A stretch of DNA of 64,000 bases from Cheilinus undulatus (Eukaryota; Chordata; Actinopteri; Labriformes; Labridae): the NCBI RefSeq assembly GCF_018320785.1, contig NC_054873.1, positions 28,052,196 to 28,116,195 on the forward strand, in the 5' to 3' direction. Below, in pieces: positions 3,299 to 64,000 of the stretch; within the stretch, counting starts at the first letter, position 1; every line of letters begins with the position of its first letter. The notes beneath the pieces are model-generated. The model made no database searches and was not told where the DNA came from. It worked only from the letters and a program-made list of their open reading frames with translations. Both the position numbers and the translations under genes were made by a program.

Positions 3299-3311
3299 GG
3301 CCCGTAGAGGT

Positions 3312-3573
3312 GTGACGGACAGAACGTTCATCAAATCACATTCCGAGTTTTTTTCAAAGACTCTGTCTTTTCTCAGACGTTTGCTGTTGAAGCTTTCCTG
3401 GATGGATGTGTGAAACAAATCCATCTGGCATGTCAGGTTAATGACAGACAGAATGTTCATTCAATCACACGCCGAGTTTTTTTCAAATCCTCTGCCCTTT
3501 CCCAAACGTTTAGTATTGAAGCTTTCCCAGATGGTTGTGTGAAACACATACATCTGACATGTCAGGTTAAGAT
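3312..3573 (+). repeat. Two-copy tandem repeat of about 130 bp
   Basis: Units at about 3312-3440 and 3441-3573 share the order GACAGAA.GTTCAT, CCGAGTTTTTTTCAAA, then a GAAGCTTTCC block and CATGTCAGGTTAA. They follow directly on the RecQ-like units and are probably part of the same dispersed repeat. The first unit carries a GATGGAT...ATCCATC hairpin like the one heading the upstream units. No function is recognised. Confidence 0.6.
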
Positions 3574-3605
3574 GAGACGGTGTTTGCTCACAAACACATG
3601 CTAAA

Positions 3606-15596: not shown

Positions 15597-18500
15597 TCAG
15601 TCATACATGGATTCAGCCAGGCCTGTCTGTTTAATGGACTCAGCCACCTGTCTGGAGTGCTGCATCTTAGCCGACAGAGCCTCCAGAATGTCGTTCTGGT
15701 CCACAGCGGTGGCTGTTCGGTAAATAAACGACCCCATTGACTCCAGACCTCGCATACCTAGATTCACCCCACAACCTGAGGAGAAAAGGAAAGAAAAAAA
15801 TTAAATCATTCATGCATTAGATCATGTATAACATGGTAATGGCAGCCCATGTTTACAGGAATCATCTTTATTCTGCTTCAATTAAAAGCTGCTCATAAAA
15901 ACAGTGAGCATCAGGGAGACAGAGGCGGATAAGGCCACTGGGTGCAGTAATGAGTCACACACCCATTAACAACAAACATACTGCACAAATAAAAAATAAT
16001 TTATTGCTTTTCTCTACAATGCAATCACTATTATTTATAGATGTGTACCTGTGTCAAAGTTGAGCACACGTGCCGCCTCCCCCTCAACAGTCACCGCCAC
16101 GTCGTCCCCCTCGATGTATGCTGCACTGATGCGTCTGTGAGATAACTGTATCTCAAAGAGACGCCGGCTGCACTGCATGTGGTGCAGTGTCACATCGCTC
16201 AGACGAGGTTCAATGTCTGTCTTATAGGCATTGAAGGACTGGTGGAAAATGTTCTTCATGATCTAGGAAGACAAAAGGCAGATTTAAGGATATTTATCAA
16301 CACTTCTGAGATGAAAAAAGGACAATTTTTTTTTTTAAAAAAACTGTTGTTTCAAGAAAAAAACATGAGATGACAACAAAAATCCTCAGATTTCTTTAAA
16401 GACAGGTCATTAGAAATATGCTGCTCCAGCCAGGAGTGCTTATTGACATTTTGCTTAAAACTGAGCAAGGCCAAACATAAGGGGGGGTGAAAGGGAGAGC
16501 TTTCTGTGGCCAAGCCAAATATAGGGGCAATCGAGGTCAGCAAAAACATGGTCCATTGTAAAGTTAAGCAGTGAAAACTGTACTTTAATTTTTTTTTTAC
16601 CAGAATAATAACTATTCTTATGAAAGCAACAAGTTATTTAAATCTGTTTGTGCCATAGTAGCCTTCTTTAAAATGCAACCCCCTTTGCTTAAAACTGAAT
16701 TACAATGAGTAAATTAAATAATAAAAGTGGATGAAATGAGTTAAAAGTGACAAATAAATGGTTTGTTCAATTCCAGTGTTAGCTCAACTCTTTAAAGAGT
16801 TACCTTAAATCTGGGGGGATGTGTTGGCAGATTTCCCCATCATGCCTTTGGGTAAAGTGTTGTTATGTTTGGATGTTGCCTGTTGGACAGTGGTCACTGC
16901 ATGGGTTATTTTGCTCATGTTTCTGTTTGATTGTTGTTGTTTTGTTAATGTGATACACATTTGCACCATGAGTGAAGTTATCCACTGAGCTAGAGTTCCC
17001 ACCTGTACTAACTTTGGGTGCTGCTGAAGAACACAGAGAGCTTATTCCTGATCAGTGTTCTCACCTGTTCTTGCTGTGAGATTGACTCTACTTTGTTTTG
17101 CCAGAAGAGGCCCACTATGCCACAGATTTGAAGGAGTTACTACAGCTTTGTCAAAATGTAGAATATTGTACCTGAGACTTTCAAAAGTGTAGTTTATCTA
17201 TGTAAGTGTGGACAAATACAAACATTTTAAAGTGTCAAATTTCACTCTATATGAGTTTAATAAATGCTTCTATTTTTTTCCTTGCATTTTTCTTTATAAT
17301 AGAGTTTGACGACGTGGTGTCAGTCTCTTGTTGTTCTGGCCAATAAGGAAAGATTATATTTTACTGTATAACTCCACAGTAGCTACTCAGTACTAAAAGT
17401 AAACTTTAAATCAAATAAATTTTACTTTTACTGGTGTAGTTTTATAGACCAGTGCTTTTACTTGAACTTAGGTAATTCTAACCAGAGTAACTGCACTTTT
17501 ACTAGAGTAGCCTTGTACTTTTTACACCACTGGTTAAAAGTGGAAAAAATGTGTTTAAGAAGCAAAAATGCACAGGTAAATAGTGATGAAAAAGGTTTAA
17601 AATGTGAAAAAAATTGATAAAAAGGCACAAATATTTGCAAAAAAAATGATGAAAAGTGGTAACAAAGTGGCAAAAATGGGCAGTAAAAGTGGTTTTAACA
17701 AATTTTAACAACAGAACCTAGTAACAGCGTGACACGCTTTTCAGCTCCAAAATGAGTTAACTGTTAGTCAGGAGGCTAGCACCAATGCTATTTATCTAAC
17801 ACACATACATGAATATTATCAATAAATCAAAACTAAGGATCACCCAGTCTCTGGGTTTGCCATGGGCCCAGTAAAATCTGTGGGCTCTGGGCTCTGAGAG
17901 ACAAAAAAAGGAAACAACACTGAATTCAGGACATATTCAAACTTAAATACTAAGCTTAGTCATGAATAATGTACTTAAAATGACACTCTACTTTCTACAA
18001 TTATGAATTATTTTGGTTGATACAAGTTATGCCTTCAAATAGCTTACCTTTTGATTTTGAACTACTTAGATAACTGAATTTGTAATTTTGGGCTATGAAG
18101 AACTTTGGCCTGCATCTTTAGGGTAGAATAGGTGGAATTAAAAAATCTATTTATTCACCAAACATTTAGTTAAAAACCTATTACTGCTAAAACTAAGACT
18201 TCCAACATAAAGAGCAATCCCTCCTCTAAAATACCAAAAAGCTTTTCTTGTGTACTTTCTTCAGTCCTATATAATGGGACAAAAAGAAAAAGAAAGAAGA
18301 GGGTTTCTCCACCTAATTTCTGTTCTCATTGATTTTCAGGTGATGGTGGGTATTGAGTGATGTGCATTTCTCCCTCTCTTTCTCTGTGCTCCTTTGCCCC
18401 GTACTCACATAGTCATCTGTTACCAAGTAACAGTGCATCTAAATGGCCACCCACATAGCAACAAGAGCTCCAAGGATGGTCTTGGTATTTACCTGTGTGT

Positions 18501-21500
18501 ACTCCACTGTATGCTGTGTGTGATCAGAGAATGACTTTACATAGAAACCTGGAGAGTTTAAATAAAAAAACAACAGCCCAGTAGTCACTAAAGCGACCAC
18601 TGTCTGATGTAGAAAAAGTGCTGCCCTCTGTTTATCCACTGGTGCGTTAAAGCAGGGTACAGATGGCCTCTACAAACACTTTAGTGAGGTCTTTTTCTCC
18701 TCCCCCTTTTCCCCATTTCTTCCTCTAATGCTCTCAGCCAACCACACACTCACACATCTCCACAGACTTCAACGTTTGTGCACACTCACACCAACATGTA
18801 CACATTCAGACACTAATGGACTCCAACAATAGTGCAGTCAAAGGCTATTTGCTAACTGAAAGGTGAAGAATAAGTAGGTGGGCAGGATTTATTATTAGCC
18901 GCCTTTCCCTTGCACTAAAATGGAAACACAGCTGCATGTTCCTCACACATAGAGTCTTTATAGAAATGTATTTGTAAGAAGTCAACAACAAAACAAACAA
19001 GCAGAGCTGGAGTGGCTCACAGAGGAGTTGGCCGTGTGCCTGAGGAAGCGGACCATCTTGGTGTCAGATGCAGGGCAGACGAGGGCCATGTAGCGGTTTC
19101 TGAAGGTGCCGTAGATTTTCAGGTGGAAGCCGGTTTTGAATGCCGGGTTTCGGTGCTCTCGCAGTGCCTCCACCCCGTAAGCAGACAGGTCAAAGTAGAG
19201 GCTGTGGGCTCTGATCTCAGGGGTGGGAACCTAAAGTGTAGAAAGACAGGAAAAAAGACAAATGGCATATGAAATCATGTCAGATAATAAACAATATTGA
19301 TACAGGGATCTTCATTTTGATATTTACCATACGTCTGCAAATTGGCTTAAATTCTTTTACATGCATTTCATGTACAGTGAGTTTAGTTCACTTTTTTTCA
19401 GTTTTGTTATGTTGCAGCCTAATGCTACAATAAAAATGAATATTTTTTTATTCATCTACACACAGAATGAACAAATAAATAAAAAGAATTTTAGAAATGT
19501 TTTTTAGCTGAGATGTTTGGAGTCACCTGTGGTAAGTTAAGTTGATTGGAAAGGCACACACCTCTCTGTAGAAAGCCTCACAGCTGACAATGTATTTGAA
19601 GACAAAAATAAACAATTAGCTCATGACAAAGAAAAGATTTGGAGTATTACCAACAGGCCTATAGAACTGTCATCACTTGAGATTAACAACACTTTTTTTT
19701 TACTTTTAGTGGCCCCACATTTCCCCTAAAGCCAGAATTGATCAATTTTCTCCTCAATGGCATAAACTATCCGAGTGGGATCAGACAGCACCTAGTGCAG
19801 ACGAGGGAGACAGAGCAAGAGCAGAGCAGCGATAGGGAGGGGATGAGGAGACGGCGGGGCCGAGCGGGTCATATCCTGGGAGGTAAATTCAATCACTACA
19901 GGAAACAGCCGGGGAGAAAAGCGGGCAATAAAAAGCAGACCACAGACACTAAAGAGAACGTGATGGGAATGGTTATGGCAGCATAAAATGGGAAAGGAGG
20001 CTAAGCCTGTGTCCAGGTATTAGTTTATATAAGCCTGGATGTTTTTTTCTTACCTAAACTGATTTTTTCACCATAATAAAATCTACCTTAGCTGCAGCTT
20101 GTCACTGTCTGTAATAATGACAACATTCTATCTTAACAAGTTCATATCAATAATATAACAACAAAGCTTTGGGTGATCTGTGCAGGATAAATACCATTGG
20201 TCTGGCTTTTTAATCTTATGTGTGCACTAACATATTACAACACATGCTTTATTTCTCTATCTAAATACAGGCAAATAAAAAAGCCCATTTTTATAATCAG
20301 TTTCTCGATTAAAGTGCTCTCTATTCATGTATTCTGTCTTTTGTAGGCCTCTTGGTATCATCACTGAGTCATCCTTCAAAGAACCATCTGCTTATTTAAT
20401 ATCAGGTGACTTTTTCCACATTTTGAAAAAAAAAAAGCATTGGCTCTGATATTTTTTGTATCTTGATTCATATTCACAGATTACGAATGTGGTCAAGGGG
20501 GTGTAGCAAATCTCTGGCCTTATCATCCTTCATCACGTGAATCCATCAGAGCAACAGCTGCTCCTATCAAACTCAATGAGTAAATCAAAACAGGGCCAGT
20601 GTTGAGTCTGCTCAGATCTGTCTGTTTATATGAGAGTCGCATATTGTGTTTAATATTGCATTCGGCTGTTACTGGCAGGCTCACGTCCCTGTTTGCCCAA
20701 CCCGGCTTTATTAGGCCAAATAAAGTCGCCTTCACCATGATATCCTGTAATATCCTGTTTCTACAGCTTTCATTCTTTACTCAAACACACACCTGTCACT
20801 GATTGCCTCAGCGTGTGTGCATGAGTGAATGTGTGCACTAAGGTGTGCGTACATTCATGTTTGCGTATGCAGATTGTGTGCTCTGACCTGTCTCTGATCC
20901 AGTCTCTCGATAGCAGCGTTAGCTCCATAAGCATGGCAGGACTCCACAGTGTAGTCTGAGCTGATGCCCAGCACAGAGCAAGAGTCTCCACACGAGCCAT
21001 CAGCCACCACGATCACACGTGGCCAGTTATTTTGAGGGATCTTCCGCAGGTACTCCTCTGTGAACTATGAAGACAAGAGATACAAAAAACAAGGAAAACT
21101 CTAAAAAATCTCATTTAGATTTTGTAAAGATTTGTCATTCACCTAACAGAGAGGGATATAACATAGCACATACTCTGAAGAACACAGATTCTAATTTCTG
21201 TAACTAAAGGTGCAGCTTTTAATAAAATTTTGTAAAAATAAGTGTTTGATTGCAAAATATTCACAATTCTCATAAAAGGCTTAATGCATGTAATTGTATC
21301 CCTCAGATGGTGTAAAGGAAATTTTTACGCTAAGGGTGTAAGTGGCTGAAAATGGCACCATACATAAATAACAATACATATATAATAAATTATTTTTTCC
21401 CCATTTTTTTTAGATTGTTTTTTGATAAAGATCAGACCTGACCATAAATATCAAACATGAATTAATGTTTGTGAATTTAAAACTTTAAATGCCAGTTCAA

Positions 21501-22172
21501 GTGCAAACCCCTGGTGTTTGTGATATAAAAACACACAGAAAATGACAAATTTTATATGGACTAAATGCAAATTGAATTTCCTGGAAGAGGATTATCAGAG
21601 CCTTCAATGTGTTATTAATGAGTAAAAAAATTGATTTTTATGGGGTTTTTTTTTCAGGAATGTAATTAATCAATAAATTGTTATGCTCAAGGTGTAAGTG
21701 GCCAAAAATGGACACTGTATGGACACTATATTTGTAATTAGCTTTTTTATTTAAGGAATTTAACCCTTTTCGTGCCAGTTTAAGTGCAAAAATTCAAGAT
21801 TTTTGTACTATAAAAAAACACAACAAAATATTTTCTACATAGAACATACTTGTTAGATTTCCTTGAGGAGGATTGTCACAGACTTGAATATGTTGATAAT
21901 GAGCGACAACTTTAATTTTATGCATTATTATTTTTGTATATTTTAAGATTATAATAAATCATTTAAAAAGGCGTCCCTATAGGGAACCTGGAAAAAAGCA
22001 TGCAATTTCCCCTACCAGACCTATTTATAGACATCCCACACCTTGAATGTTTAGAAGAACTCTCAAGAATTTTTTTTTGACCCATAACAAGTTCTGGTAT
22101 TAAAATTTCAAGTCTGCTTAAAAAAAAAAAACATACCTTCCAAAATGTATGTTGTTTGCATTAACACTTAAA

Positions 22173-22208
<36 letters not shown>

Positions 22209-25200
22209 AAAATTACAAAATGTCACATATACCCTCTATTGGCTAAATAAGAATTATTTTGAGTTTTCTTATGCACTCATTGGAGAGTTATGACAGGGAA
22301 TAGAGTTAGAAACCAGGCAGAGTGGGGAAAGATATGCAGGAAAAAGAGCCACAGGCTGGCTTCACACACAGGCCAATTGTGTTGAGGACTAGAGCCTCTC
22401 TATATGGGGTGTACCACGCGTTGACACAACCACCAAGCTACCAGAACCAAATATCATGTTTTTTTAAGTTGCCATGTGCCAGCAAGGGAGCTCATAGTAG
22501 CCAACACACTACCACCCCTCGTCAATGACTGTCAATGGCGACCAGATGGGAGTAGTGTCTCCAAGCAGTCTAGTTTGGTTCAGTATAGTGAGGACCCTGA
22601 TCCATCTTGCATTTCCAGAGTGCCTCAACCCAACTTGGTTGGCAGATATGTGAGCTAGATGGCAATACCCACATCAGCTATAAAATAGTGTGACATCTTA
22701 GCAGCCTGAAAAAGTTTAGCCTGGCAGTTCAATAAAGAAGACGAATGTAGCACAGGAAATGCAACACAACAACAGAGAACATCCAGCATTTTGTGTTTTT
22801 TTCTTCTTCTTCTGTTTATCACAATGAAAGGGAGCTATTGGCCAATCAGCAGACTCTAATGAGTCTTACTGCATCCTTTAGAGTCCTAACTTTCTGGCAC
22901 AACCCGCCAGAGGAGTGCCTAAAAGGTAGGATGATACAGATTGTTTTTTTTTTTTTTTGCACTTTTCCCTAATTTGAACCAAACCATACTAAACTACACT
23001 GTTGAAAGCTGCAGAATGGGCTCAAGCCATTGTTTCTTAAGATCAGAGCATCTTTCAAAGAGATTTTTTACTGTGTCAGTGTGTTACAGTAAACACCATC
23101 CACTTAGAGAAAAAAGAGCATGGCATGAGTGATGAAAATTGGAATAAAAACCCTATAGAGGCTCAGAGTCAATCAGATCTATGTTAAATCCAGTTACACA
23201 GTTGAGAGCATGGGCTTTAAAAAAAGAAATCTTTGTATTCTTAGACATTTGAAGCCCTGACAGGCGAAAACAATCATTCATTAACACTATGTGCTGTCAA
23301 ATGAAAAGGAAATGGCAAACTTGGCAGTGATTCTAAAGTAAACTGAGGTTTTCAGTGATCTCAACCCCTCCTGACCTTGTCTTACTCCTCCTTCTCCATG
23401 TCGATGAGTCACAGAGAGCAGAGACAGCTAACAGGAGCAGCATCAGAATAAAAGACGCTGCTTTTACTGCTTTAGTTTTATTGTATGAAACCCCAAGTCC
23501 AAAAAAGTTAGGTTGTTAAAAAAGAATGAAGTGATAGGCAAATCATTTCAGTCTATATTTGATTTATTATGGCACAGTCCAATATATGTAACTGTACAAA
23601 TGCTGAACTTTATCGTCTTTTTGGAAATATACACACACTCTGAATTTGATGCCTGCAACATGGTCCAAAAAAGTTGGGACAGGATCATGTGTACTACTGT
23701 GTAACATTAACTTTTCTTCTGACAATACCATAAATATCTAACCTTGCAAAGCAGATGGATACACCCGTTTCCGTGTTTCTCACTGGTGAATCCATCTTGC
23801 AAAGCTCCCATCTGAACCGTTTGGGCCCGATTAGAAAGTGACAGGACCAATCAGCAACAAGGGGCAGTACTTTCAGGCGCAGCAAAGTTGTGATGTAAAC
23901 AAGCAGCAGCAAGAGCGGGTGCAGTTATGGAGAAGGAGATTAATGTTGATGCTGCTAAAACGCCAGTTTTACCAGAACATCACAGCAGTGAGTTGTTTTA
24001 ATGAAGTTACACTGATAACCATTCAACGGTCATGAAGTTACACTGATGACCTCTCAACAGTCATGAAGTTACACTGATGACCTCTCAGCAGTCATGAAGT
24101 TACTCTGATGACCATTCAACAGTCATGAAGTTACACTGATGACCATTCAACAGTCATGAAGTTACACTGATGACCTCTCAACAGTGATGAACTTACACTG
24201 ATGATCCCTCAGCAGTCATGAAGTTACAATGATGACCCCTCAGCAGTCATGAAGTTACACTGATGACCTCTCAACAGTCATGAAGTTAAACTGATGACTA
24301 CTCAGCAGTCATGAAGTCACACTGATGACCCCTCAGCAGTCATGAAGTTACAATGATTACCTCTCAACAGTCATGAAGTTACACTGATTACCTCTCAACA
24401 GTCATGAAGTTACACTGATGACCTCTCAACAGTTATGAAGTTACACTGATGACCTCTCAACAGTCATGGAGTTACTCTGATGACCATTCAACAGTCATGA
24501 AGTCACGCTGAGGACCCTTGGCAGTCATGAAGTTACACTGATGACCTCTCAACAGTGATGAACTTGCACCGATGACCATTCAACAGTCATGAAGTTACAG
24601 TGAGGACCCCTCGGCAGTCATGGTGTTACACTGATGACCATTCAACATTCATGAAGTCACGCTGATGACCATTCGACAGTCCTGAAGTGACACTGATGAC
24701 CTCTCAACAGTCATGAAGTTACACTGATGACCCCTCGGCAGTCATGGTGTTACACTGATGACCCCTCAGCAGTCATGAAGTTGCACTGATGACCATTCAA
24801 CAGTCCTGAAGTGACACTGATGACCTCTCAACAGTCATGAAGTTACACTGATGACTCCTCAGCAGTCATGAAGTTACACTGATGACCTCTCAACAGTCAT
24901 GAAGTTACACTAATGACCCCTCAGCAGTCATGAAGTTACACTAATGACCTCTCAACAGTCATGAAGTTACACTGATGACCCCTCAGCAGTCATGAAGTTG
25001 CACTGATGACCTCTCAACAGTCATGGAGTTACTCTGATGACCCCTCGGCAGTCATGGTGTTACACTGATGACCTCTCAACAGTCATGAAGTTACACTGAT
25101 GACCTCCCAACAGTCATGGAGTTACTCTGATGACCATTTAACAGTAAATCATTTTTACTCAATCATGGCAATATCCCCTGTGGTTTTTTAATTAATCTAT

Positions 25201-27124
25201 TCACTTTGGAATGTTCAAGATGTTTTTGAGCATGTTACAACCTCTCAACTTTTTTGAACATGTTGCAGTTATCAAATTTACAATGTGGAAATTAAACAAA
25301 ATCATATTTCATCAGTTTGAGCATTAAACATTTAGTCTTCGTTGCAAATCACCGTATCCCCATTTTACACAGTTGGGATGTGTACACTGCTTCCTGGCTT
25401 AGTAAAACTTATGGTTATGAAAGCACACAATAGTATGACTTTAACAGAGTAGAAACAGAGCCTCATCTCTTGGTTTCCAGCCATGACACAGATATTCAGT
25501 GAACATTTCATAATTGTTTGCCCACAATTAGCGCTCACTGCTCCCCGCTGAGGTTTGGGGTTAGTGGGTTGTTTCTTTGTTTGTAGTCAATGACCAGCAG
25601 GGAAATTGTTCTCATTGTGTTATCTCGGTGTCATGAAGCACATGCTGAAGGAAAAAAAATAAGCAAAATATTTTCTACTGAAATTGTGATAACATTTGCT
25701 GTTGTTGTTTTTAATCTCCAAAGCTCTAATACTAACTTGAGGTGTGTTTTACAGTAAATTAGGCACTAGAACACACAGTTATGAATCTAATCAGGATTTT
25801 ATGTTACAATCCATTTTATGTGCAGTTTTACTCTTAATGATGCAACGTTTAGATTTTCCACCATTCAGTTTAACAGTCTTTACCCCCAGCCTAAAAGCTG
25901 TGGGCAGGATTCTCCTCAGGTTTGAGGTCAGCTTACATAACAAGTTATTTCAACTGATGAGCGTGCTTTTACTCGGACATTACACAATGTTGTGTGAGAA
26001 GAAGCTTTGGGAGTAATGTGGGAGGGTATATGTGCAGTCAGCCTTTTATAAATGAGCACTTTTAGCACAGAAAGTCAGATTTAAGGAATTAGGAATGACC
26101 AATAAATAGCCTATAGTTAATTTGAGTTATAAAATATGTTTGTCAAGTTTCAGGGTGCTTTAAGAGCAAATTGTGTCATGTTGAGAGCAGAAGCCACAGC
26201 TCAAAGATGTTCTGATGTAACACACAGCAGCATTGTTCAGGATCGGGGTAAAGCTGATGTGGCCTCTGAATGGTCCTGGGAACAGGGATCTCTGTCCCCA
26301 TTAATACTAAGAGCTATCTGACCCAGGCTGGAGTGGAGACACACACCAGCCTGTTTGCTTTGACCGCTGCCACTGAGGGAGGATCAGGTTTGACAGACTG
26401 TAAAGGCCCAGTCATTACAGGATGGAGGTGAGACTGAGACTCTTTGCTGTCTACAGTGTCATCACAGATTGTTTCTAGATCAGTGCTCTGAGTTTTTCTG
26501 ATAACTTGCATGAGCTAAATCCTGACAGGAAGAAAGGTTGTGTAACATGGGACTGTAACACATCAGGATTACTTCATAAAGCTCTACCAGTACTGTGAAG
26601 CGCTATGCTGACTGATGTGCAACGGTGTGTTATAGTACCTTGGTACCTAGTTGAACTTTGACTTCCACTTTCTGCTTCTTCTGCTCCAGGATGCTGAGCA
26701 GGTACTCCTGAAACACACCGATCCTTGTAAAAAAGTGCTCGTTGTGCCAGCAGCCCTCCATGTTATCAAAGTCCACCCCGAGTCCCAGCAAGAACTTGAC
26801 ACTGCGGGGGTCCAGGGCGATCTGCTGCGGCCGGCAGAGCAGGGCGGTCCGGTACCTCTCATCCAGCACGGTCAGTTTCAGCACCTTCCCGGAGCGGACA
26901 GCAACCAGGGCAGCCGTCAGCCCCACGGGACCAGACCCCACGATGAGCACCGAGATCCTGGCCCGCCACTGCCTGATGCCGTCCAGGCTCACTTTGACCA
27001 CCACGTAGACGCAAACGGCCACCAGGGTGCTCAGCGCGGTGTCATAGGCGAGCGCGCGGTACCTCTCTTCTGCGTTTTCCCCCATGTCGCCAACTCCAGC
27101 GTTTCCTGCCTGCAGCCCGCCCAT
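15597..27124 (-). CDS. Membrane-anchored FAD monooxygenase-like protein, family unassigned
   Basis: Five minus-strand exons, 26639-27124, 20888-21064, 19021-19230, 16049-16262 and 15597-15775, join in frame (phases 0,0,0,1) into 421 residues ending ...GLAESMYD. The start is the first ATG after an in-frame upstream stop. Residues 27-47 are a hydrophobic segment followed by RQWRAR, suggesting a single N-terminal anchor. Residues 58-90 form a Rossmann dinucleotide fold with GSGPVG (63-68) and an acidic strand end (LDER). VVADGSCGDS (about 181-190) matches the DG motif of group A flavin monooxygenases. GEAARVLNFDTGCGVNLGMRG (352-372 region) resembles the GDAAH...GqGlN.G flavin-binding block, with GE in place of GD. 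The order recalls PHBH, MICAL and kynurenine-monooxygenase folds, but I do not recognise the family or substrate. PRPF18 lies upstream on the same strand. Exon structure is well supported; catalytic activity is inference. Confidence 0.8.
16263..17524 (-). other. Intron 3 of the flavoprotein gene, 3' part
   Basis: Non-coding. Beyond the acceptor polypyrimidine region and short homopolymers I see nothing identifiable. Confidence 0.4.
17525..17890. repeat. Degenerate GGTTAAAA/GTGGCAAAA array, copy 3
   Basis: A shorter copy of the family seen at 4.4 and 13.2 kb lies in intron 3 of the flavoprotein gene. The array (about 17530-17700) is followed by GGCTAGCACCAATGCTATTT, then GTCTCTGGGTTTGCCATGGG and CCCAGTAAAATCTGTGGGC. 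The tail shared with the other copies shows that a longer mobile unit, not a local expansion, is repeated. Its ends were not found. Confidence 0.55.
17891..19020 (-). other. Intron 3 of the flavoprotein gene, 5' part
   Basis: Non-coding sequence without a recognisable transposon. Runs of CACA and TCTC type occur but no long microsatellite. Confidence 0.35.
19375..19600 (+). mobile_element. Tc1-like terminal fragment
   Basis: In intron 2 of the flavoprotein gene, a block with TTTTGTTATGTTGCAGCCT is followed, 100-odd bases on, by GGAGTCACCTGTGGTAAGTT and GGAAAGGCACACACCT. These are 5'-leader parts of the same kind of fish Tc1 element seen at 10.7-11.5 kb. The intervening sequence is shortened and no transposase remains. 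It is a plain DNA transposon remnant. Confidence 0.6.
19740..19990. other. Purine-rich, G+C-rich stretch in intron 2
   Basis: A GAGA-rich patch (19800-19870) in otherwise AT-rich intron. It resembles no exon of the host gene on the minus strand and no known repeat. It may be conserved non-coding DNA, but nothing proves this. Confidence 0.25.
21316..21930. repeat. Diverged direct duplication in intron 1
   Basis: Two related segments lie about 365 bp apart. The first runs from GGTGTAAGTGGCTGAAAATGG through TGCCAGTTCAAGTGCAAA to CCTGGAAGAGGATTATCAGA. The second runs from AGGTGTAAGTGGCCAAAAATGG through GTGCCAGTTTAAGTGCAAAA to CCTTGAGGAGGATTGTCACA. Order and spacing are kept while many bases differ, so this is an old tandem duplication or two parts of one repeat. 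Confidence 0.5.
22174..22208. repeat. (AAC)n microsatellite
   Basis: About eleven uninterrupted AAC units lie in intron 1 of the flavoprotein gene. Confidence 0.9.
23742..23998 (+). repeat. RecQ-like helicase-start repeat, truncated copy
   Basis: This copy begins CCTTGCAAAGCAGATGGATA, carries the same leader as the 2.5-3.3 kb pair (GGCAGTACTTTCAGGCGCAG, AAACAAGCAGCAGCAAGAG), and reads MEKEINVDAAK in place of EEISVDAAK. The middle of the LKEEQ segment is deleted and the copy stops at GCAGTGAGTTGTTTTA, where the minisatellite begins. Confidence 0.6.
24001..25145. repeat. 31-bp minisatellite, about 37 units
   Basis: The unit is ATGAAGTTACACTGATGACC followed by an 11-base variable part. Three main variants are visible: CTCTCAACAGTC, ATTCAACAGTC and CCCTCAGCAGTC (or CCCTCGGCAGTC), the last often paired with ATGGTGTTACACTGATGACC. 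Phase is kept almost throughout. The unit is not a multiple of three and no long frame runs through it. The variants are interspersed, so the array grew by repeated unequal exchange or slippage. It should be length-polymorphic. Confidence 0.9.
25384..26638 (-). other. Start of intron 1 of the flavoprotein gene
   Basis: Non-coding sequence between the nested transposon and the first exon. No repeat, exon or RNA gene was recognised. Confidence 0.4.
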
Positions 27125-27330
27125 CCCGTCAGTTGCGTCCCCTTTTTTCAATGTGTGGCCGTCATCTTAGCTTAAATAAAAGAAGAAAAGACCTTCCGTC
27201 CATGCACACAGCAAAAGCAGCTGTGCGCGTCCTCTGCGCTCCCTGCGCTGCAAGTGGAGTTGTTGCAGCACGCTGGACTCTCTCTCTCTCTCTCTCTCTC
27301 CCTCTCTCCAAGAGAGCGTCAGCACAAAAT
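27125..27330 (-). promoter_or_regulatory. 5' region of the flavoprotein gene with a five-codon uORF
   Basis: Upstream of the chosen start, the minus strand carries ATG ACG GCC ACA CAT TGA (27148-27165), an uORF encoding MTATH that ends 23 bases before the main ATG in another frame. A TAA in the main frame lies further up, which supports the start at 27124. A TC/GA microsatellite lies at 27279-27308. The region has the higher G+C of a promoter. No TATA box was seen, and the transcription start is unknown. Confidence 0.45.
27279..27308. repeat. (TC)n microsatellite in promoter region
   Basis: About 14 TC units just upstream of the flavoprotein gene. Confidence 0.9.
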
Positions 27331-27789: not shown

Positions 27790-28790
27790 ATCCTTTAAAT
27801 GTCAAAGTGAAAACCGATTTCTACACAATAATGTCCATTTAATAGAAATACTGTATATAATGTAAAAAAGTGATTGCATTCACCCACTTTTAGGTGACTG
27901 ACTTAATTCAACAGAGGTCCAGCCAACTGGGGCCAGAAATCAGGATCACCTGTGTGCAATCAATGCATCTCAAGTAGTATAAGGACACCTGTGTCTGGAA
28001 GGTAGCTGAGATGGAAGAGACTCTGCATATAACAACTGTTGCCCGGGTTCTTCACCTAAATGGGAGTGGACAGGAAAAAGTCAGTGTTGATGAAAACTCA
28101 TATTTAGTCATGACTAGACTTGACTGACGAGAAGGCATGTGGGTGACTCCATGGTAAATTGGAAGAAAGTTATTTTGGTCTGGTGAGACCAAAATGATGC
28201 TTTCTGGCCATCAGACAAGACGTATGTTTAGATCACCACTAGCACACCATCCCCACTGTGAAGCACGGTGGTGGCAGCATCATGCTGTGGAGATGCTTCT
28301 CAGCAGCCGGCCCTAGAAGGCTTGTAAAGGTAGAAGGTACAATGATTGCAGCAAAATATAGGAAGGACAATCTTATTTAGTCTGTAAGAGAACTACAGCG
28401 TGGAAGTAGATTCATTTTTTCAGCTAGACAATGACCCGAAGTATACAGAAGCTACACAGAAAGGGTTTACGTCCGATCCCTGTGCAACCTGACAGGGCTT
28501 AGGCAGTTTTGCAAAGAAGGATGGAGTAAAATCGCAGTGTTCCACACAGACTCAATGCTGTGATTGCAGTCAAAGCATCTACAAAATACTGATTTGAAGG
28601 GGGTGACTATTTATGTAGTACCTTATTTATTTCAATTTAATTGACATTACTTTGTAGAAATCTGTTTTCACTTTGGCATTAAATAGGTTAGTTTTTTGTT
28701 AAACAGCCAGTATATATTGATGGAGATTAATTTATAAAATCAATAAAGGGTAAAACATCCAAGGTGGTGAATATTTTTTACGTTCACTTT
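27790..28790 (+). mobile_element. Tc1/mariner element with terminal inverted repeats, degraded
   Basis: Inverted termini are visible: AATGTCAAAGTGAAAACCG and TTTCTACACAATAATGT at 27797-27834, and the reverse complement of the 28640-28690 region, AATGCCAAAGTGAAAAC then TTTCTACAAAGTAATGT. Inside, GGTGGTGGCAGCATCATGCT is the nucleotide hallmark of fish Tc1 transposase genes. LFWSGETKMMLSGHQ matches the WSDETK region, with the first catalytic Asp replaced by Gly. The internal part is shorter than a full element, so it has lost blocks and is inactive. Confidence 0.8.
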
Positions 28791-30744: not shown

Positions 30745-31030
30745 GTGACTTTTGGGTACAGTACTAGATTGGTCTGCATCCTACCTAAAGGACAGGGGCC
30801 CATGTAACCTTAAATCCGAACTGACAAAATATACATGTGAGGTCCCCCAAGGCGCCATCCTGGGGCCTCCACTGTTTAACTACATGCTTCCACTTGCTCA
30901 GATCAAAGAAAACAACAAAATAAATGACCAGAACTATGTAGACGACATTCAGCTTTACATTTCAGTGTCCTCAGGTGACCATGGCCCATACAAGCACTTT
31001 TTAGCCATAATCAAGCTGCTCTAGCTTAAA
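30745..31030 (+). mobile_element. L2-type LINE reverse-transcriptase fragment
   Basis: One open frame of about 90 codons contains, in order, VLDWSASYLKDR, CEVPQGAILGPPLFNYMLPL and NYVDDIQLYISV. These are the finger/palm motifs of non-LTR reverse transcriptase, with YVDD for the usual YADD of L2-clade elements. The endonuclease and the C-terminal part are missing. It is a short 5'- and 3'-truncated remnant. Confidence 0.8.
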
Positions 31031-55600: not shown

Positions 55601-55999
55601 AAACGAGTTAAACACTGGTTTATAGACACCTTCATCATGTAGACCAGTCGCAGCTCTACTTATGTGATACTGAATGAAGCCATTCCAGCAGACAGCTGAC
55701 TGTAAACATTTTATCAATTAGTGATTTATTCTGCTCAGTTCTGGTTATATAGTTGGTAGAAACCAGCACAAACAAACTGAAGTCAATTCATATAGTTTAC
55801 AAAATCATTCTGCTATGGTACTTTTATTTACCCGTCCCAGTGGCTGGTATGTTGAGCAAATTCACCAGACACTGCTCAAAAATACTTGCATTTGGCTGGT
55901 GGTGGGTGTTGATTTCCCCCCTGCATGCATACCTGCTTCAATCAATCAGTCATCCATATCTCATCTTTAACACTGCATCTCTCTCTCTCTGTCTCTCTG

Positions 56000-56049
<50 letters not shown>

Positions 56050-57024
56050 GGTCCTTTTCAGCGGCTGGTCTCATGCACACTTTCAACGCTCACGCTGCCA
56101 CAGACATCACAGGGTTCGGCATCCTTGGCCACGCACAGACACTGGCAAGGCAACAACGAAGTGAAGTGTCATTCGTAATCCACAACCTCCCCGTGCTTGC
56201 CAAGATGGCCGCTGTGTCTAAGGCCTGTGGTAACATGTTTGGACTCATGCATGGCACTTGCCCTGAAACATCAGGTATGTGTGTGTTTGTATACAAAAGG
56301 TTTTGTTGTTTTGTTTTCTTCTCAACTATTGTATGACTTACGTACATAACATTGTATGGTCCTGTTTTAGAGTGAGCATGAAAAAGAGATTTATAGATTG
56401 AGTAAACCAAATAAAACTTTGATGGTATGGAGTCACAACATAAATGTTTGTTACCTTTGGTCCACTTTTACTGAAACCTGCCCTGATGATTTAGCTGGTG
56501 TGTGCATTAACAGTTGTAATTAGAAATGAGTATAGATAGCTGAAGAGCATGATTAGAGTAGTGTATTCATGTCAAAATACCTTAATTTTAAACTTTGGTG
56601 TAATACTGCCAAAGTAAAATGAAAGAAGCAAAAAATAAACAGTTGTAAATGTGTGAAAGCAAAGCAAATCTCATTTATAATAAGAAATTTATGTGGTCAA
56701 CAAAGGTAACTTAGATCACTGTGGTGACAGACTGAGCACTGACTAGCATCACTAGAAATGCATATTACCCTACCCCTATGTCACTGGCCAAATCTCCCTT
56801 TCTTTACAGGAGGCCTGCTTATCTGTCTGCCTCGGGAGCAAGCAGCCCGCTTCTGTGCTGAGATCAAATCCCCGAAATACGGAGAGGGCCACCAAGCGTG
56901 GATCATTGGTATTGTAGAGAAAGGAAACCGCACTGCTCGCATCATCGACAAACCGCGGATCATAGAGGTGGCACCACAAGCAGCCACACAGAATGTCAAC
57001 CCAACTCCTGGTGCAACCTCTTAA
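52606..57024 (+). CDS. sephs1: Selenophosphate synthetase 1
   Basis: Nine coding exons: 52606-52701, 52834-52930, 54038-54141, 54317-54424, 54558-54712, 54829-54919, 55012-55111, 56062-56274 and 56810-57024, giving 392 residues, the same length as human SEPHS1. The protein starts [20 protein letters not shown] and ends NPTPGATS. It belongs to the AIR synthase/SelD fold of selenide water dikinases. The residue that is Sec or Cys in active SelD/SEPHS2 is Thr29 here (KGTGCK, residues 27-32), so this is the SEPHS1 paralogue, which is linked to redox balance rather than to making selenophosphate. The glycine-rich [12 protein letters not shown] and the [12 protein letters not shown] segments are intact. 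A CT microsatellite abuts the acceptor of the eighth coding exon. It converges on CPT1. Fully intact. Confidence 0.98.
53371..53398. repeat. (TTTG)n microsatellite
   Basis: A T-run followed by about five TTTG units in a SEPHS1 intron. Confidence 0.85.
55979..56046. repeat. (TC)n microsatellite at a SEPHS1 acceptor
   Basis: Almost pure CT with a few TG interruptions in its first half, ending 15 bases before the AG acceptor at 56060-56061. It therefore forms most of the polypyrimidine tract of that intron. Confidence 0.9.
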
Positions 57025-58657: not shown

Positions 58658-61600
58658 TCATATGTGCTTTTTCCCATTTTCTAGTTGTACGTGCTTAGAA
58701 TACTCCACCATCCTCTTGTCATTTTCAAGCTTGAAAAGTGTTTGAATATCAAGCATGGCCTTCCAAATGTGCTGGCCAAACCGGTACGAGTCCTGCACAC
58801 CAAAGGGTAAAAGAGGGAGAAACAGAGAGAATAAGAGGGTTGAATCTTGAAGGGATGCACAATCAGTAAACAGAGATGTATTGACCACTACCAATGGCAG
58901 CTATTTTCCAGAGACATCAGGCTGCAGACTTCTGTGGTGAGGCATTTTGGGCTCATCTGTTACAGACCTAAAAGGGCACCTCAACCATGGGGCAGGAAGT
59001 GATGTACAAACCTTTGTTGGGGTTTTCCTTAGTTTGTGATATAATTTTTAATTCTAACCCCCTCCCCTTACCCTAACCTTAAGGGTTTGGGTACCCAACC
59101 CTAACCCTCTTTGGGGTTTCCTTAGTTTGTGCTGTGTTAAAATTTTAATTATCAGGGAGCAGGTGGCCTAGTGGTTAAAGGCACTCCCCATGTACGTGGG
59201 TGGCCCGGGTTTGAATCCAGCCTGAAGCCCCTTACCGCATGTCTCTCCCCCACTCTTGACCCTCTATCCAACTCTATCCACTGTCCTCCTCTATCTAATA
59301 AAGGCACAAAAATGCCCAAAAAATAAATCTTAAAAAAAAAAAAAGAATTATCTCAATCAGCAAATTGTTGATTTTTATTCATAAAGTTATGCTTTTGTGG
59401 AAAAATAGCCACTAACTGTAACCTCTGACAGTGAGCGGGAAATATACATCATTCAGTATGTAATTATGGTTCCAACTTAGGCAATGTACATCATCTTCCA
59501 GCCCCACTAGCACATCATGCTGCTAGCAAGGAAGCTGTTCAAAGCATTCAATTATTGTTCTTTGTCATTTTCACAAGTTAGAATATAAATGACCTGAAAA
59601 TAAAGTGATAAAATGTTAGTTTGGAACATTTGACTTGTCAGTGTACTTGCTAGCTACCATAAATATGAATGCCAGCAGTAGCTGTTTTCTAAGTTAAACT
59701 TTTTGGTTATGAAATTTGTTATTTTGATTCAAAACATGGTCAGACTTCCCTCTTGATTACTTTTTTTATAGTGAAAACTACTGTAAAGGCACTTCACCAG
59801 AAATACAAGTGTGACTGTCTTTAAATGGCTAGCATTTAAGCTTCCCACCTTCAGCATGATTTCAGCATAAAAATTGATGTTTCTGAATATTGGTGAGTGT
59901 GCCATGCCTATATTGTTCTCTTACTGTGTCTGGGCTGGAGAACTTGCTGGAGATGTGGAATGTTATGAGATTTTCCCCAACAATTATATAAGACACACCA
60001 TAACCATCATCAGCCACCTGCAAGTTGACAAAATATGAGCATTATACAAATCCTCCATGATCACAAAAGGCATTAGTAATGTGGAATTTCTAACATCACA
60101 CAATTTTACTCACTGGGCCAAATCCACCACCAGCACCGACATATCTGGGGAACTTATTGATGTCAACTAAATTGAGCTGCTGCTGTGGAGTCTGGCTGGT
60201 CGACAACTTCCATGGCTCTGAAAGCACCTGGACAAAAAAAGACAGGGCAGGTAAGAAACATAAAGCCAGAAGCTATTCACCTGATCGTAATTCAAAAGAT
60301 GATCAGAATCCTAACCTTCTCCAGAAATGGAGAGTCCACCCCGAGGTATTTGGACACAATGTAGAGACAGAAGAGGTGGCGGTCAATGCCAGAACCAGTC
60401 ATGGCTAGACGATACATGTTTTGATGCTTATTTGCTGCTGTCCGAAATAGGGCAAGTCTGTGAGCATTCTGGATTCAAAAAAGTGACAAAAACACACATA
60501 AATACAACAGCACAGCACCTCCAAATGGCCTTATTTCTGTTTGTACTACTGTCAAATGTACCCTGCCAGAACAGCAGACAGATCAGAGTCTGAGTACAGA
60601 CTTCAGAGACATACTGGCCCTGGGTTTGGGTGACCGAGTACTAAACAGCACAATGTGACCTTCAAAGTGTGCCCTTTAACACATAACGATTGGGCATTTT
60701 TGAACCAGATAACACAAATTTAACCCTCTATTTACCAATGTGGTCTGCGGTCTGCAGTGGTTTTGACTGAAATTTATGAAGATGTGCCTGAAGTGAAGAC
60801 TTTTCAGCTTTAATTTGAGGGCTTTCACAAAGCACTTTCTGAAGTGTGGAGCTCATGGACATCACCATATTCTGAGTTTCCTCCCTGGAGATGTTTTAAC
60901 AAGCCTTTACTGTAGCCACCTTCAGTTGCTGCTCATTTTTGAGTCTTTTGGTCTTCAGTAAATACAAATTGTGCTCTAATGGGTTGAGATCTTGTGACTG
61001 ACCTGTTCATTGCAGAGCATTCTATTTCTTTGCCTTCGGACACTCTGGTGTTGCTTTCATGGTATGTTTTGGGTCATTTTTCATCTGCACTGTAGTGCTA
61101 TCCTTTCAGTTTTTCAGCATTTGGCTGAATGTAAGGAGAATATTCCTATACACTTTCTTGCCAAAAGGAAATAATTGACCAAACACAAATTTCCTAACTT
61201 TTTGTTATAAGTTTACAGACGGACCTGACTGTAAATAAACCAAAATCTTTGTTACTCTGCATAATAAAGAAATAATTAGCTCACACTATATTCACATCCA
61301 TGCAAAATAGCCTCTTAAACACACATTGCAGTAACTTTAATTATTTTATCTGTGTAGTAATAGGATATATTTCCATATTCCCACAGCACACCTAGCCTCA
61401 GGCATACCATTTGGGAGTCACTGCTCTAAATGGTTCTGAAATCCTCAAACTGACCAGACCCCCATAAATGTATCTGAATTCACTAAGCCACAAGCCTTTG
61501 TCATTTTTCCTGATTTCTTTGTTTCTTACTGTTGCACCTGGATCCTCCATGGCTCTAACAAAAGCAACCGCCTCAGAGGTACAGGAGCGTACCGTCTCTG

Positions 61601-64000
61601 TCCGACCATCTCTGAACATACGCGTCATTGATGACTCGTATGTCAGACAGAACACTCCCTGGTCCTGCAAAGGCAAGGATAGGAGTCATGGGGGATGATG
61701 CGGTTGAACGTTCACAAATCAGCTTCGAACAACAATGTTGGTGATGTTATGCCAGAGGTTGTTGGATGAGAAGCCCTACCCTGAACTGAGCCAGCTGCAG
61801 GGCCAACTGAATGAAGGCATCAGGGCTGGTCCTGCACTTCTTGATGAGTCCTTTCCCAAACTCACTAAACAGACAGCCATGGAAGTCCACGTCATCAGCT
61901 ATCTGCTTTGCTAATATGTATGAAGCCTCAATGGAGTCTTGGCACTAAGAGAAGAGAAAATATGCAAATAATCAAGTTAATTTTGTGTTTAAACCGTTGG
62001 TGATGAATGATGTAAGGCTCTGATGTACCTCCTTTGGAATCTTCCACTGTAGCCGAGTGGGATACGGTAGGTTTTTGTTTACATCCCCTTTACAGTGTCC
62101 CTCTTCTGTGTAGCCAAGATGGAAGCAGTCTGTTGAAAGGACATACTACACAGACAGACAATGACAGCTGAAATTACCTGAGAACTTTAAATCACTGTTT
62201 TATGATACAGTGTTGATAACCTTTTTTACCTCCCACATATGTCCAACAATTGGAGCGTCAGCCCAAGAATGTTCAGCACTGATTCCCATTTTACCATTTG
62301 GATAAGAGATCAAGGTGAAAGATTTATCAAACCATCTGTGGGAGAAGAAGAACGGGTGGCAAGCACAGTTAGTCTAAACAGTAATGCTGCTACTGTCAGT
62401 ATCATTCCTTTGATCCTCTGCCTACCTGTCGTAACATTTTCCATGAAGTAGGGACTTGGCGTAACTATCAAGTGAACGTTTCTTTGCAGGGTCATAACCC
62501 TGTGGCTCATCATCTAGTGTCAGGAAGAAGGCAGCTGACTCCACAGCATCCAGGGACACTTTGTTTGCTCCTTGGCCAAAGTATTTAACACGAGTCTGAG
62601 CCCATGGAACTCTAAAACATGATGTCAAGTTAAGAATATATATAGATTTTTTTTTTCTTATGTGTCTGCTATTCCACTTAGTGTGCGGTTTTATACCTGT
62701 TTCCTGCAGTCAGGGAAGCTAGTTTGAGTTCTCCTGGCTGTGGTTCTGAGGTATCATTGAGGATCCTTTGAAACTGCATCTCCAGTTCACTGGGTAAGAG
62801 GTGGCGCCCCCCAGTGTACAGCCACACCTGGAAGAAACGGCCCTTGTGATAGACAACCAGGTGCTTACGGTCAGTCAGGTGCTGTACGATATCTAAAGGA
62901 GAAGGAGGACAACCAGAGGAAAAGTGTGTGGATAAAGGAGGAATAAGGGTGAGAAGTATTACCATCATATGTGATAAACTATACACACATGTTTGTGCAA
63001 AGCTATAGATACAACTCTTCTACCTGTTTCAATTCCAGGGATACGGGTGGTGTTAAACATCCTCTCCATCTGTGTGGAGCACATGGGAACAGTCCCCAAA
63101 GCCCTCAGCTGGGCAAAAAGGAAAAAAACAACAAAATATTACAATTAAGTTATCCAAGACATGAAAGATTTAAAGAAAAATAAAGGTTTGATGTTCATAC
63201 TTGAGCTTGAGCGAAGATCATAGGAAACAAGTTAAAAGTACAAGACTAAGAAAGGATATGATTGTATCAAGCCTTGTAGGTGTCTGAGATTGAGTAAGAA
63301 AGTCAAAACAAGCCTTACCGGTGCATGTTCACCACGCTCCAGTTTGCGTCTGTACTGCAGCATTGCATGCACCATATTTCCTGCCCGTGCAGCTTGTCGG
63401 TGTGTTGGAGTCACATACAAGAGGTCCTTCACATAGATTTATTCAATAAACAGAGGAGGCAGACCAAAAAGAGAAAGTCAAATCACATTAATCATAAATC
63501 AGAGACATGTTCTCCCAAAATGTTTGGTTTAAAGCTGGGGTTCCCAACCTTTTATCCTCAGGCCCCCCTACTCATATCTCAGACAAGCTAAGCCCCCCAG
63601 GACCTACTTGGAACATTTAAACATCGATTTTAATTGTTTCATTGAGAATACTCCAACATAATACACCACATACACATTCTTGACAAAAGATCTATCTGTG
63701 TAAAAAAGTCATTATTATGTATTATATGATAATAAAGATCTAGTGATAATCAAAAAAAAAAAAAACCTCAAGTTTAAAGGTATTAATCTAAGAGACTTTT
63801 TTCTCCAAAATGTTGTAAATGTACAGGAACCAGAACAAAGGTTTTTTTAAACTCATAAAGTTGAAAAATTGAAAGTCAAACCATTGTCTTCACAACTGCT
63901 GCATTAAGCTGATCAAATAACTGTCCACCTTACCATTATATAAAAGTTACTGTTGACCATGATAGGACTCCTGCCACGAAGGTAGATGTACTCCTCCCAC
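58658..64000 (-). CDS. cpt1: Carnitine O-palmitoyltransferase 1, C-terminal part
   Basis: Thirteen minus-strand exons are in the window: 63934-64000 (runs off the edge), 63319-63426, 63024-63108, 62697-62892, 62426-62611, 62230-62335, 62029-62145, 61780-61944, 61530-61664, 60316-60468, 60114-60227, 59925-60017 and 58658-58792. They join in frame into 552 residues. CPT1 sits in the outer mitochondrial membrane and moves long-chain acyl groups from CoA to carnitine, the malonyl-CoA-controlled step of fatty-acid import. Visible landmarks are [18 protein letters not shown], the catalytic His in [35 protein letters not shown] and DDGYGVSY. The two membrane segments and N-terminal regulatory part lie past the edge. 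Residue choice leans to the CPT1A side (HCKGDVN, QTPQQQ), but the paralogue is not settled. The tail after the conserved domain is longer than in mammals, ending LENGKKHI. Confidence 0.95.
59154..59344 (+). mobile_element. tRNA-derived SINE
   Basis: A polymerase III promoter is readable: A box TGGCCTAGTGG (59164-59174) and B box GGTTTGAATCC (59208-59218). A tRNA-unrelated body (CATGTCTCTCCCCCACTC, CTATCCACTGTCCTCCTCTA) and a tail AATAAAGGCACAAAAATGCC ending in poly-A follow. A deleted copy lies at 13565-13700. It sits in the last intron of CPT1, antisense to the gene. Confidence 0.85.
60690..61430. mobile_element. DNA transposon remnant in a CPT1 intron
   Basis: The block with GCTCATGGACATCACCATAT, GCCACCTTCAGTTGCTGCTC, TGGGTTGAGATCTTGTGACTG and GGTATGTTTTGGGTCATTTT matches, from memory, a sequence repeated many times in fish genomes, where it belongs to a DNA transposon. 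Superfamily and ends are not certain. Near 61400-61430 a separate end-like motif, CAGTGACTCCCAAATGG on the minus strand, resembles a hAT terminus. Confidence 0.45.
63535..63800. mobile_element. Possible hAT-like MITE in a CPT1 intron
   Basis: A GGGGTTCCCAACCTTTT start and CAGGCCCCCC and AAGCCCCCCAGGACC motifs resemble the terminal part of common vertebrate hAT MITEs. No matching right end or target duplication was found, so limits are approximate. Confidence 0.3.

Follow-up and report, generated by a model that had tools for sequence, protein, structure and literature searches.

This study addressed the question of which gene lies on the minus strand beside PRPF18 in Cheilinus undulatus, where a preliminary description had proposed a membrane-anchored flavoprotein carrying the three motifs by which group A FAD monooxygenases are recognised. 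The window, which here means the whole 64,000-nucleotide stretch of NC_054873.1 that was analysed and to which all positions refer, contains a five-exon gene that is real and has an intact reading frame. We consider it probable that this intact teleost gene encodes a member of the group A / FAD_binding_3 superfamily of FAD enzymes, attached at its N-terminus by what is likely to be a single membrane pass. Judged from its sequence, the product is best read as an FAD enzyme of group A-like type that has diverged strongly and whose GD block has been remodelled; its putative C-terminal flavin block is closest, among the families tested, to that of the UbiH/UbiI/UbiF/COQ6 hydroxylases.

The open frame proved to be as described, and lies on the minus strand, which the preliminary description had left unstated. 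The joined exons (Table 1) amount to 1266 bases, in which 421 codons run to the stop without interruption, and all four introns are of the GT-AG type with a pyrimidine-rich stretch before the acceptor. The junctions had been called clean, which is true of the GT-AG boundaries but not of every detail: two in-frame splice pairs are usable at the junction of exons 1 and 2, giving 421 or 416 residues, and the exonic side of the exon 3 donor is weak. Exon 1 lies within the most CpG-rich of the seven 400-base blocks between 25600 and 28399 (observed/expected 0.84 and GC 0.62, with 0.11 to 0.51 observed/expected in the other six). Codon usage was scored after training on 10 PRPF18 exon pieces, themselves located with a human probe, and 5000 segments, each of 180 bases, drawn from five stretches presumed to be non-coding, served as control and background (mean -0.28, maximum 0.114). 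The proposed frame scored highest of the three frames on the same strand in all five exons (0.08 to 0.35). Another frame came close in exon 1 (0.197 against 0.214), and the weakest was exon 3, its score of 0.082 lying below the non-coding maximum and below two frames of the opposite strand (0.094 and 0.099). The nearest AATAAA stands 1046 bases past the stop codon, within the 1500 bases searched. Intron 1 also holds a minisatellite, with 36.6 copies of a 31-bp unit, and nothing points to a role for it in the gene.

Table 1. Window positions of the flavoprotein gene, its exons and the other features discussed (a slash within a donor sequence marks the exon boundary)
Feature	Position	Strand	Length (bases)	Splice sites and phase	Content
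Flavoprotein gene	27124 to 15597	minus			five exons
Exon 1	26639..27124	minus	486	donor AAG/GTACTA	open frame with start codon; hydrophobic segment, residues 29-47; GSGPVG ADP-binding motif, residues 63-68
Exon 2	20888..21064	minus	177	acceptor CTTCATAG, donor CAG/GTCAGA, phase 0/0	VVADGS DG-like string, residues 181-186
Exon 3	19021..19230	minus	210	acceptor CACTTTAG, donor TCT/GTGAGC	middle region without supported profile similarity
Exon 4	16049..16262	minus	214	acceptor CTTCCTAG, donor CAG/GTACAC, phase 1 exit	GEAARVLNFDT, first half of the GD-like block
Exon 5	15597..15775	minus	179	acceptor CTCCTCAG	GCGVNLGMRG, second half of the block; C-terminal region; stop codon
CpG-rich block	26800..27199
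Minisatellite	24001..25135
Tandem repeat	3313..3570
Open frame through both repeat copies	3308..3601	plus
Apparent Tc1-like transposon remnant	28200..28700	minus			one motif located at 28258
Reverse-transcriptase-like fragment	30749..31021
PRPF18	41227-32725	minus
AIRS_C match of the SEPHS1-like gene	55971..56333	plus
Carnitine acyltransferase exons	61401..63019	minus

At the N-terminus, both the hydrophobic segment and the GSGPVG motif named in the preliminary description are present. The latter has the GxGxxG form that binds the ADP part of FAD, and the HMM search that had been proposed as a check gave a match to Pfam FAD_binding_3 (PF01494) over residues 57-183, a narrow pass at 23.6 bits against a cut-off of 22. 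Among the nine Pfam families listed up to E 1, it was the only one above its own cut-off, and hhalign also aligned the N-terminus (residues 57-121, probability 83). Other Rossmann families match around residues 50-101 as well, in both Pfam and NCBIfam, and the NCBIfam mycofactocin FadH/OYE model matches the N-terminus with E 3.1e-5. The hydropathy peak formed by the hydrophobic segment (mean 2.04) lies upstream of the Rossmann strand (residues 57-75), whose own hydropathy (mean 1.97) comes close to that of the supposed anchor, so hydropathy alone is no proof of an anchor. Taken together with the place of the segment before the Rossmann strand and the positive charges after it, however, it makes an N-terminal membrane anchor probable.

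For the middle third of the protein, no supported profile similarity was found either in NCBIfam or with a profile of E. coli UbiI, UbiH and UbiF, which was built as a comparison model with 2000 shuffles as control. The region scored at shuffle level against this profile, 146 of the 2000 shuffles scoring at least as high, and its single NCBIfam match was to the mycofactocin model, an unrelated oxidoreductase (E 0.086). A DG motif is described in a statement of PMC6043778 as serving the recognition of FAD and NADH in group A flavoprotein monooxygenases. The VVADGS string is present in the fish protein as claimed, and MAFFT did not place it on the DG columns of the E. coli enzymes. The stretch that separates it from the first motif is shorter than in UbiI (63 to 184, compared with 10 to 164), bringing the two about 30 residues nearer to each other. 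Because this stretch is short, introns 1-3 were searched for an additional exon in phase 0, 30-237 bases long and flanked by fair splice sites, intron 4 being omitted as it is of phase 1; the three introns gave 0, 0 and 2 candidates, respectively, and both of the latter had negative codon usage scores and were rejected.

The C-terminal third contains GEAAR, beginning at residue 352, and TGCGVNLG, beginning at residue 362, which had been described as resembling a flavin block. The best NCBIfam match of the whole protein, among the best 25 of the 36 families matched up to E 1, was TIGR01988 (UbiH/UbiF/VisC/COQ6), with 27.4 bits and E 1.5e-6, a score that falls far short of the curated cut-off of 224.65 bits, and identity to the three E. 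coli enzymes was 20-21%. Positions 4-67 and 263-321 of the E. coli profile were matched by the full protein in that order, with 12.1 and 8.4 bits, and similarity to the UbiH/COQ6 hydroxylases (TIGR01988) is collinear at both ends of the protein. The C-terminus alone covered model positions 263-346 with 11.7 bits, which was reached by none of the 2000 shuffles (maximum 6.7; 1413 of them gave any reported match). When the C-terminal 142 residues were compared with NCBIfam, four families were matched, all four of them UbiF/UbiH-type hydroxylases (E 0.0033 to 0.084), while the reversed sequence and one shuffle matched none and another shuffle matched one unrelated family (E 0.049). These UbiF/UbiH profiles span parts of exons 4 and 5. 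The C-terminal part alone had no match in Pfam and matched six sequences among the solved structures, none of them a flavoprotein and all with E 0.94 or worse; it was also left unaligned by hhalign. The assignment to the group A flavoproteins was supported at the N-terminus by the Pfam result and, weakly but independently, at the C-terminus by NCBIfam and the shuffle test. The trio of motifs offered as a fingerprint did not hold in full: the first is present, the second is uncertain, as the VVADGS string lies in a region that scores at shuffle level, and the third is altered.

The nature of this alteration could be seen when GEAARVLNFDTGCGVNLGMRG was aligned by MAFFT, without gaps, with the GD blocks of UbiI, UbiH and UbiF. 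The fish protein has Glu for Asp in the motif, and Phe, Cys and Gly for the Pro, Gln and later Asp that are common to the three E. coli enzymes. Because the GD of group A flavoprotein monooxygenases is replaced by GE (residues 352-353), the protein is classed here among the group A-like FAD enzymes as a variant form, not as a proven member. Whether the change from GD to GE means an altered active site had been raised as a question, and it is a fair one, but the exchange of Asp for Glu is its weakest argument. E. coli UbiH, an annotated hydroxylase, has GN at this position, and for this reason GE by itself does not suggest inactivity; the loss of the Pro, Gln and Asp is more telling.

The same replacements, with the Glu that stands at the first Asp of the block and a middle third that is unrecognisable, could be those of a pseudoenzyme, one that has kept the fold, and perhaps FAD, but has lost hydroxylation through the remodelled flavin-site block and would act as a structural or regulatory membrane protein. 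This we regard as unlikely, as the ADP-binding motif is intact, FAD_binding_3 passes its cut-off, an E. coli hydroxylase also departs from GD, and the reading frame is fully intact. The loss of a Pro on which the three E. coli hydroxylases agree could also be taken to suggest a flavin oxidase or reductase, in which the same fold would serve to produce hydrogen peroxide or to transfer electrons, no small molecule being hydroxylated, as has been proposed for the MICAL oxidases. MICAL sequences may likewise have a Cys in this block and little sequence ahead of the DG-like string. However, no MICAL model is among the nine Pfam families listed up to E 1, and the block matches that of UbiI in length without a gap, so that this activity appears decidedly unlikely.

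The full protein matched 11 sequences of solved structures up to E 10, three of which were FAD monooxygenases (VibO, 2,4-dichlorophenol 6-monooxygenase and phenol 2-monooxygenase) that were matched only within residues 55-118 (E 0.043 to 1.8); the other eight were thioredoxin reductases, sarcosine oxidase, trimethylamine dehydrogenase, a zinc-containing alcohol dehydrogenase and threonine dehydrogenase. PHBH, KMO and squalene monooxygenase were absent from these 11 matches. An AlphaFold2 model made from the single sequence, without an alignment, was too poor to judge whether the fold is PHBH-like (mean pLDDT 31.2, pTM 0.20). None of the searches of prokaryote, viral, phage and plasmid collections or of solved structures found a close relative, the kind of relative that such scans favour. 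The scan of bacterial and archaeal genomes gave 53 pattern matches, and of these one locus (L001) was confirmed by tblastn, matching residues 55-97 only, in a frame that appears to encode an oxidoreductase of the pyridine-nucleotide-disulphide type. No relatives were found in three scans of viral contigs, and these count as weak negatives because the third, in which the E. coli enzymes were used, missed even relatives of UbiI. The phage collection held no relatives, and the plasmid collection gave two matches with E 0.5 and 0.7. The sole confirmed bacterial locus, the further Rossmann families that match around residues 50-101, and a C-terminus that by itself resembles neither a Pfam family nor a flavoprotein structure would suit another FAD or NAD Rossmann protein, for instance of the pyridine-nucleotide-disulphide or amine-oxidase type, with a C-terminus like that of UbiF/UbiH by chance, but this is very improbable given the collinear C-terminal match that no shuffle attains, the four of four NCBIfam families of UbiF/UbiH type, and FAD_binding_3 as the only Pfam family above its cut-off.

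If the protein is an anchored group A-like FAD enzyme, as we favour, a working scheme can be proposed. The N-terminal anchor would tether the flavoprotein to an intracellular membrane, with its catalytic part facing the cytosol because of the positive charges directly after the hydrophobic segment. FAD would be bound by the GSGPVG Rossmann motif together with the GEAAR...GCGVNLG block, and the flavin would be reduced by NAD(P)H. The substrate that the reduced flavin may then oxidise would be lipophilic, and hydroxylation with O2 is the simplest form that the reaction could take.

The gene had been placed between PRPF18 and the FRMD4A side. PRPF18 does lie upstream of it, on the same strand, but nothing found in the window supports FRMD4A, which was not recognised among 10 frames of the left 11 kb compared with Pfam, none of them above cut-off. 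That end of the window has a 129-bp unit in two tandem copies with 83% matches. Between the flavoprotein gene and PRPF18 are a sequence that looks to us like the remnant of a Tc1-like transposon and a reverse-transcriptase-like fragment (RVT_1, 20.8 bits, below the cut-off of 29.6). On the far side of PRPF18, an AIRS_C match above cut-off marks a plus-strand gene that we take, from its residues, to be SEPHS1-like. Further on lie carnitine acyltransferase exons, which account for three of another 10 frames compared with Pfam, all three above the cut-off, and are consistent with cpt1b of the teleost cpt1b-sephs1-bend7-prpf18 block. A paper on cpt1b of the mandarin fish, in its statement on this block, reports sephs1, bend7 and 'prpfl8' (a spelling taken here to mean prpf18) together with cpt1b in the teleosts it examined and not in other vertebrates (PMC13025966). 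The neighbours in the window fit this teleost arrangement and not simply that of human 10p13. A comparison with human 10p13 alone is therefore insufficient. BEND7 was not identified; two plus-strand frames between PRPF18 and the SEPHS1-like gene had no Pfam match.

The known group A flavin monooxygenases of vertebrates (KMO, squalene monooxygenase, COQ6 and the MICALs) are few, and each plays its own part in metabolism or the cytoskeleton. No gene of the flavoprotein type found here is known beside PRPF18 in human 10p13, and it may have been lost in mammals. It is possible, and is put forward tentatively, that membrane-anchored, group A-like flavoenzymes of this kind form a vertebrate lineage of their own that is still uncharacterised, in which the GD block was remodelled and the middle shortened, and which was kept beside prpf18 in teleosts and lost in mammals. 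If so, a new kind of enzyme would be added to the small vertebrate set, and the altered flavin site of such an intact, anchored lineage would hint at a reaction that has yet to be studied in fish. It would also show how much change the GD block tolerates before FAD is no longer bound. No paper describing the gene was recognised among the literature matches listed, and fish databases may well list it as an uncharacterised gene. Should it prove to be merely an unnamed but widely annotated gene, its value would be as a clear candidate for enzymology.

The relationship of the fish protein to known enzymes can be summarised family by family. With the flavin domain of the MICALs it may share a block that contains Cys and a DG-like string preceded by a short region, but no MICAL model is among the Pfam families listed for it up to E 1. 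Its tie to further group A FAD monooxygenases, such as PHBH, KMO and squalene monooxygenase, is a FAD_binding_3 score above the cut-off. It departs from the UbiH/UbiI/UbiF/COQ6 hydroxylases in having GE for GD or GN, and Phe, Cys and Gly for Pro, Gln and Asp; in an N-terminal extension that bears the hydrophobic segment; in a shorter stretch between the first and second motifs; and in being without their C-terminal extension of about 40 residues. With these same hydroxylases, however, it shares the N-terminal GxGxxG, a collinear C-terminal GxAA...GxGxNLG, and a length of about 400 residues.
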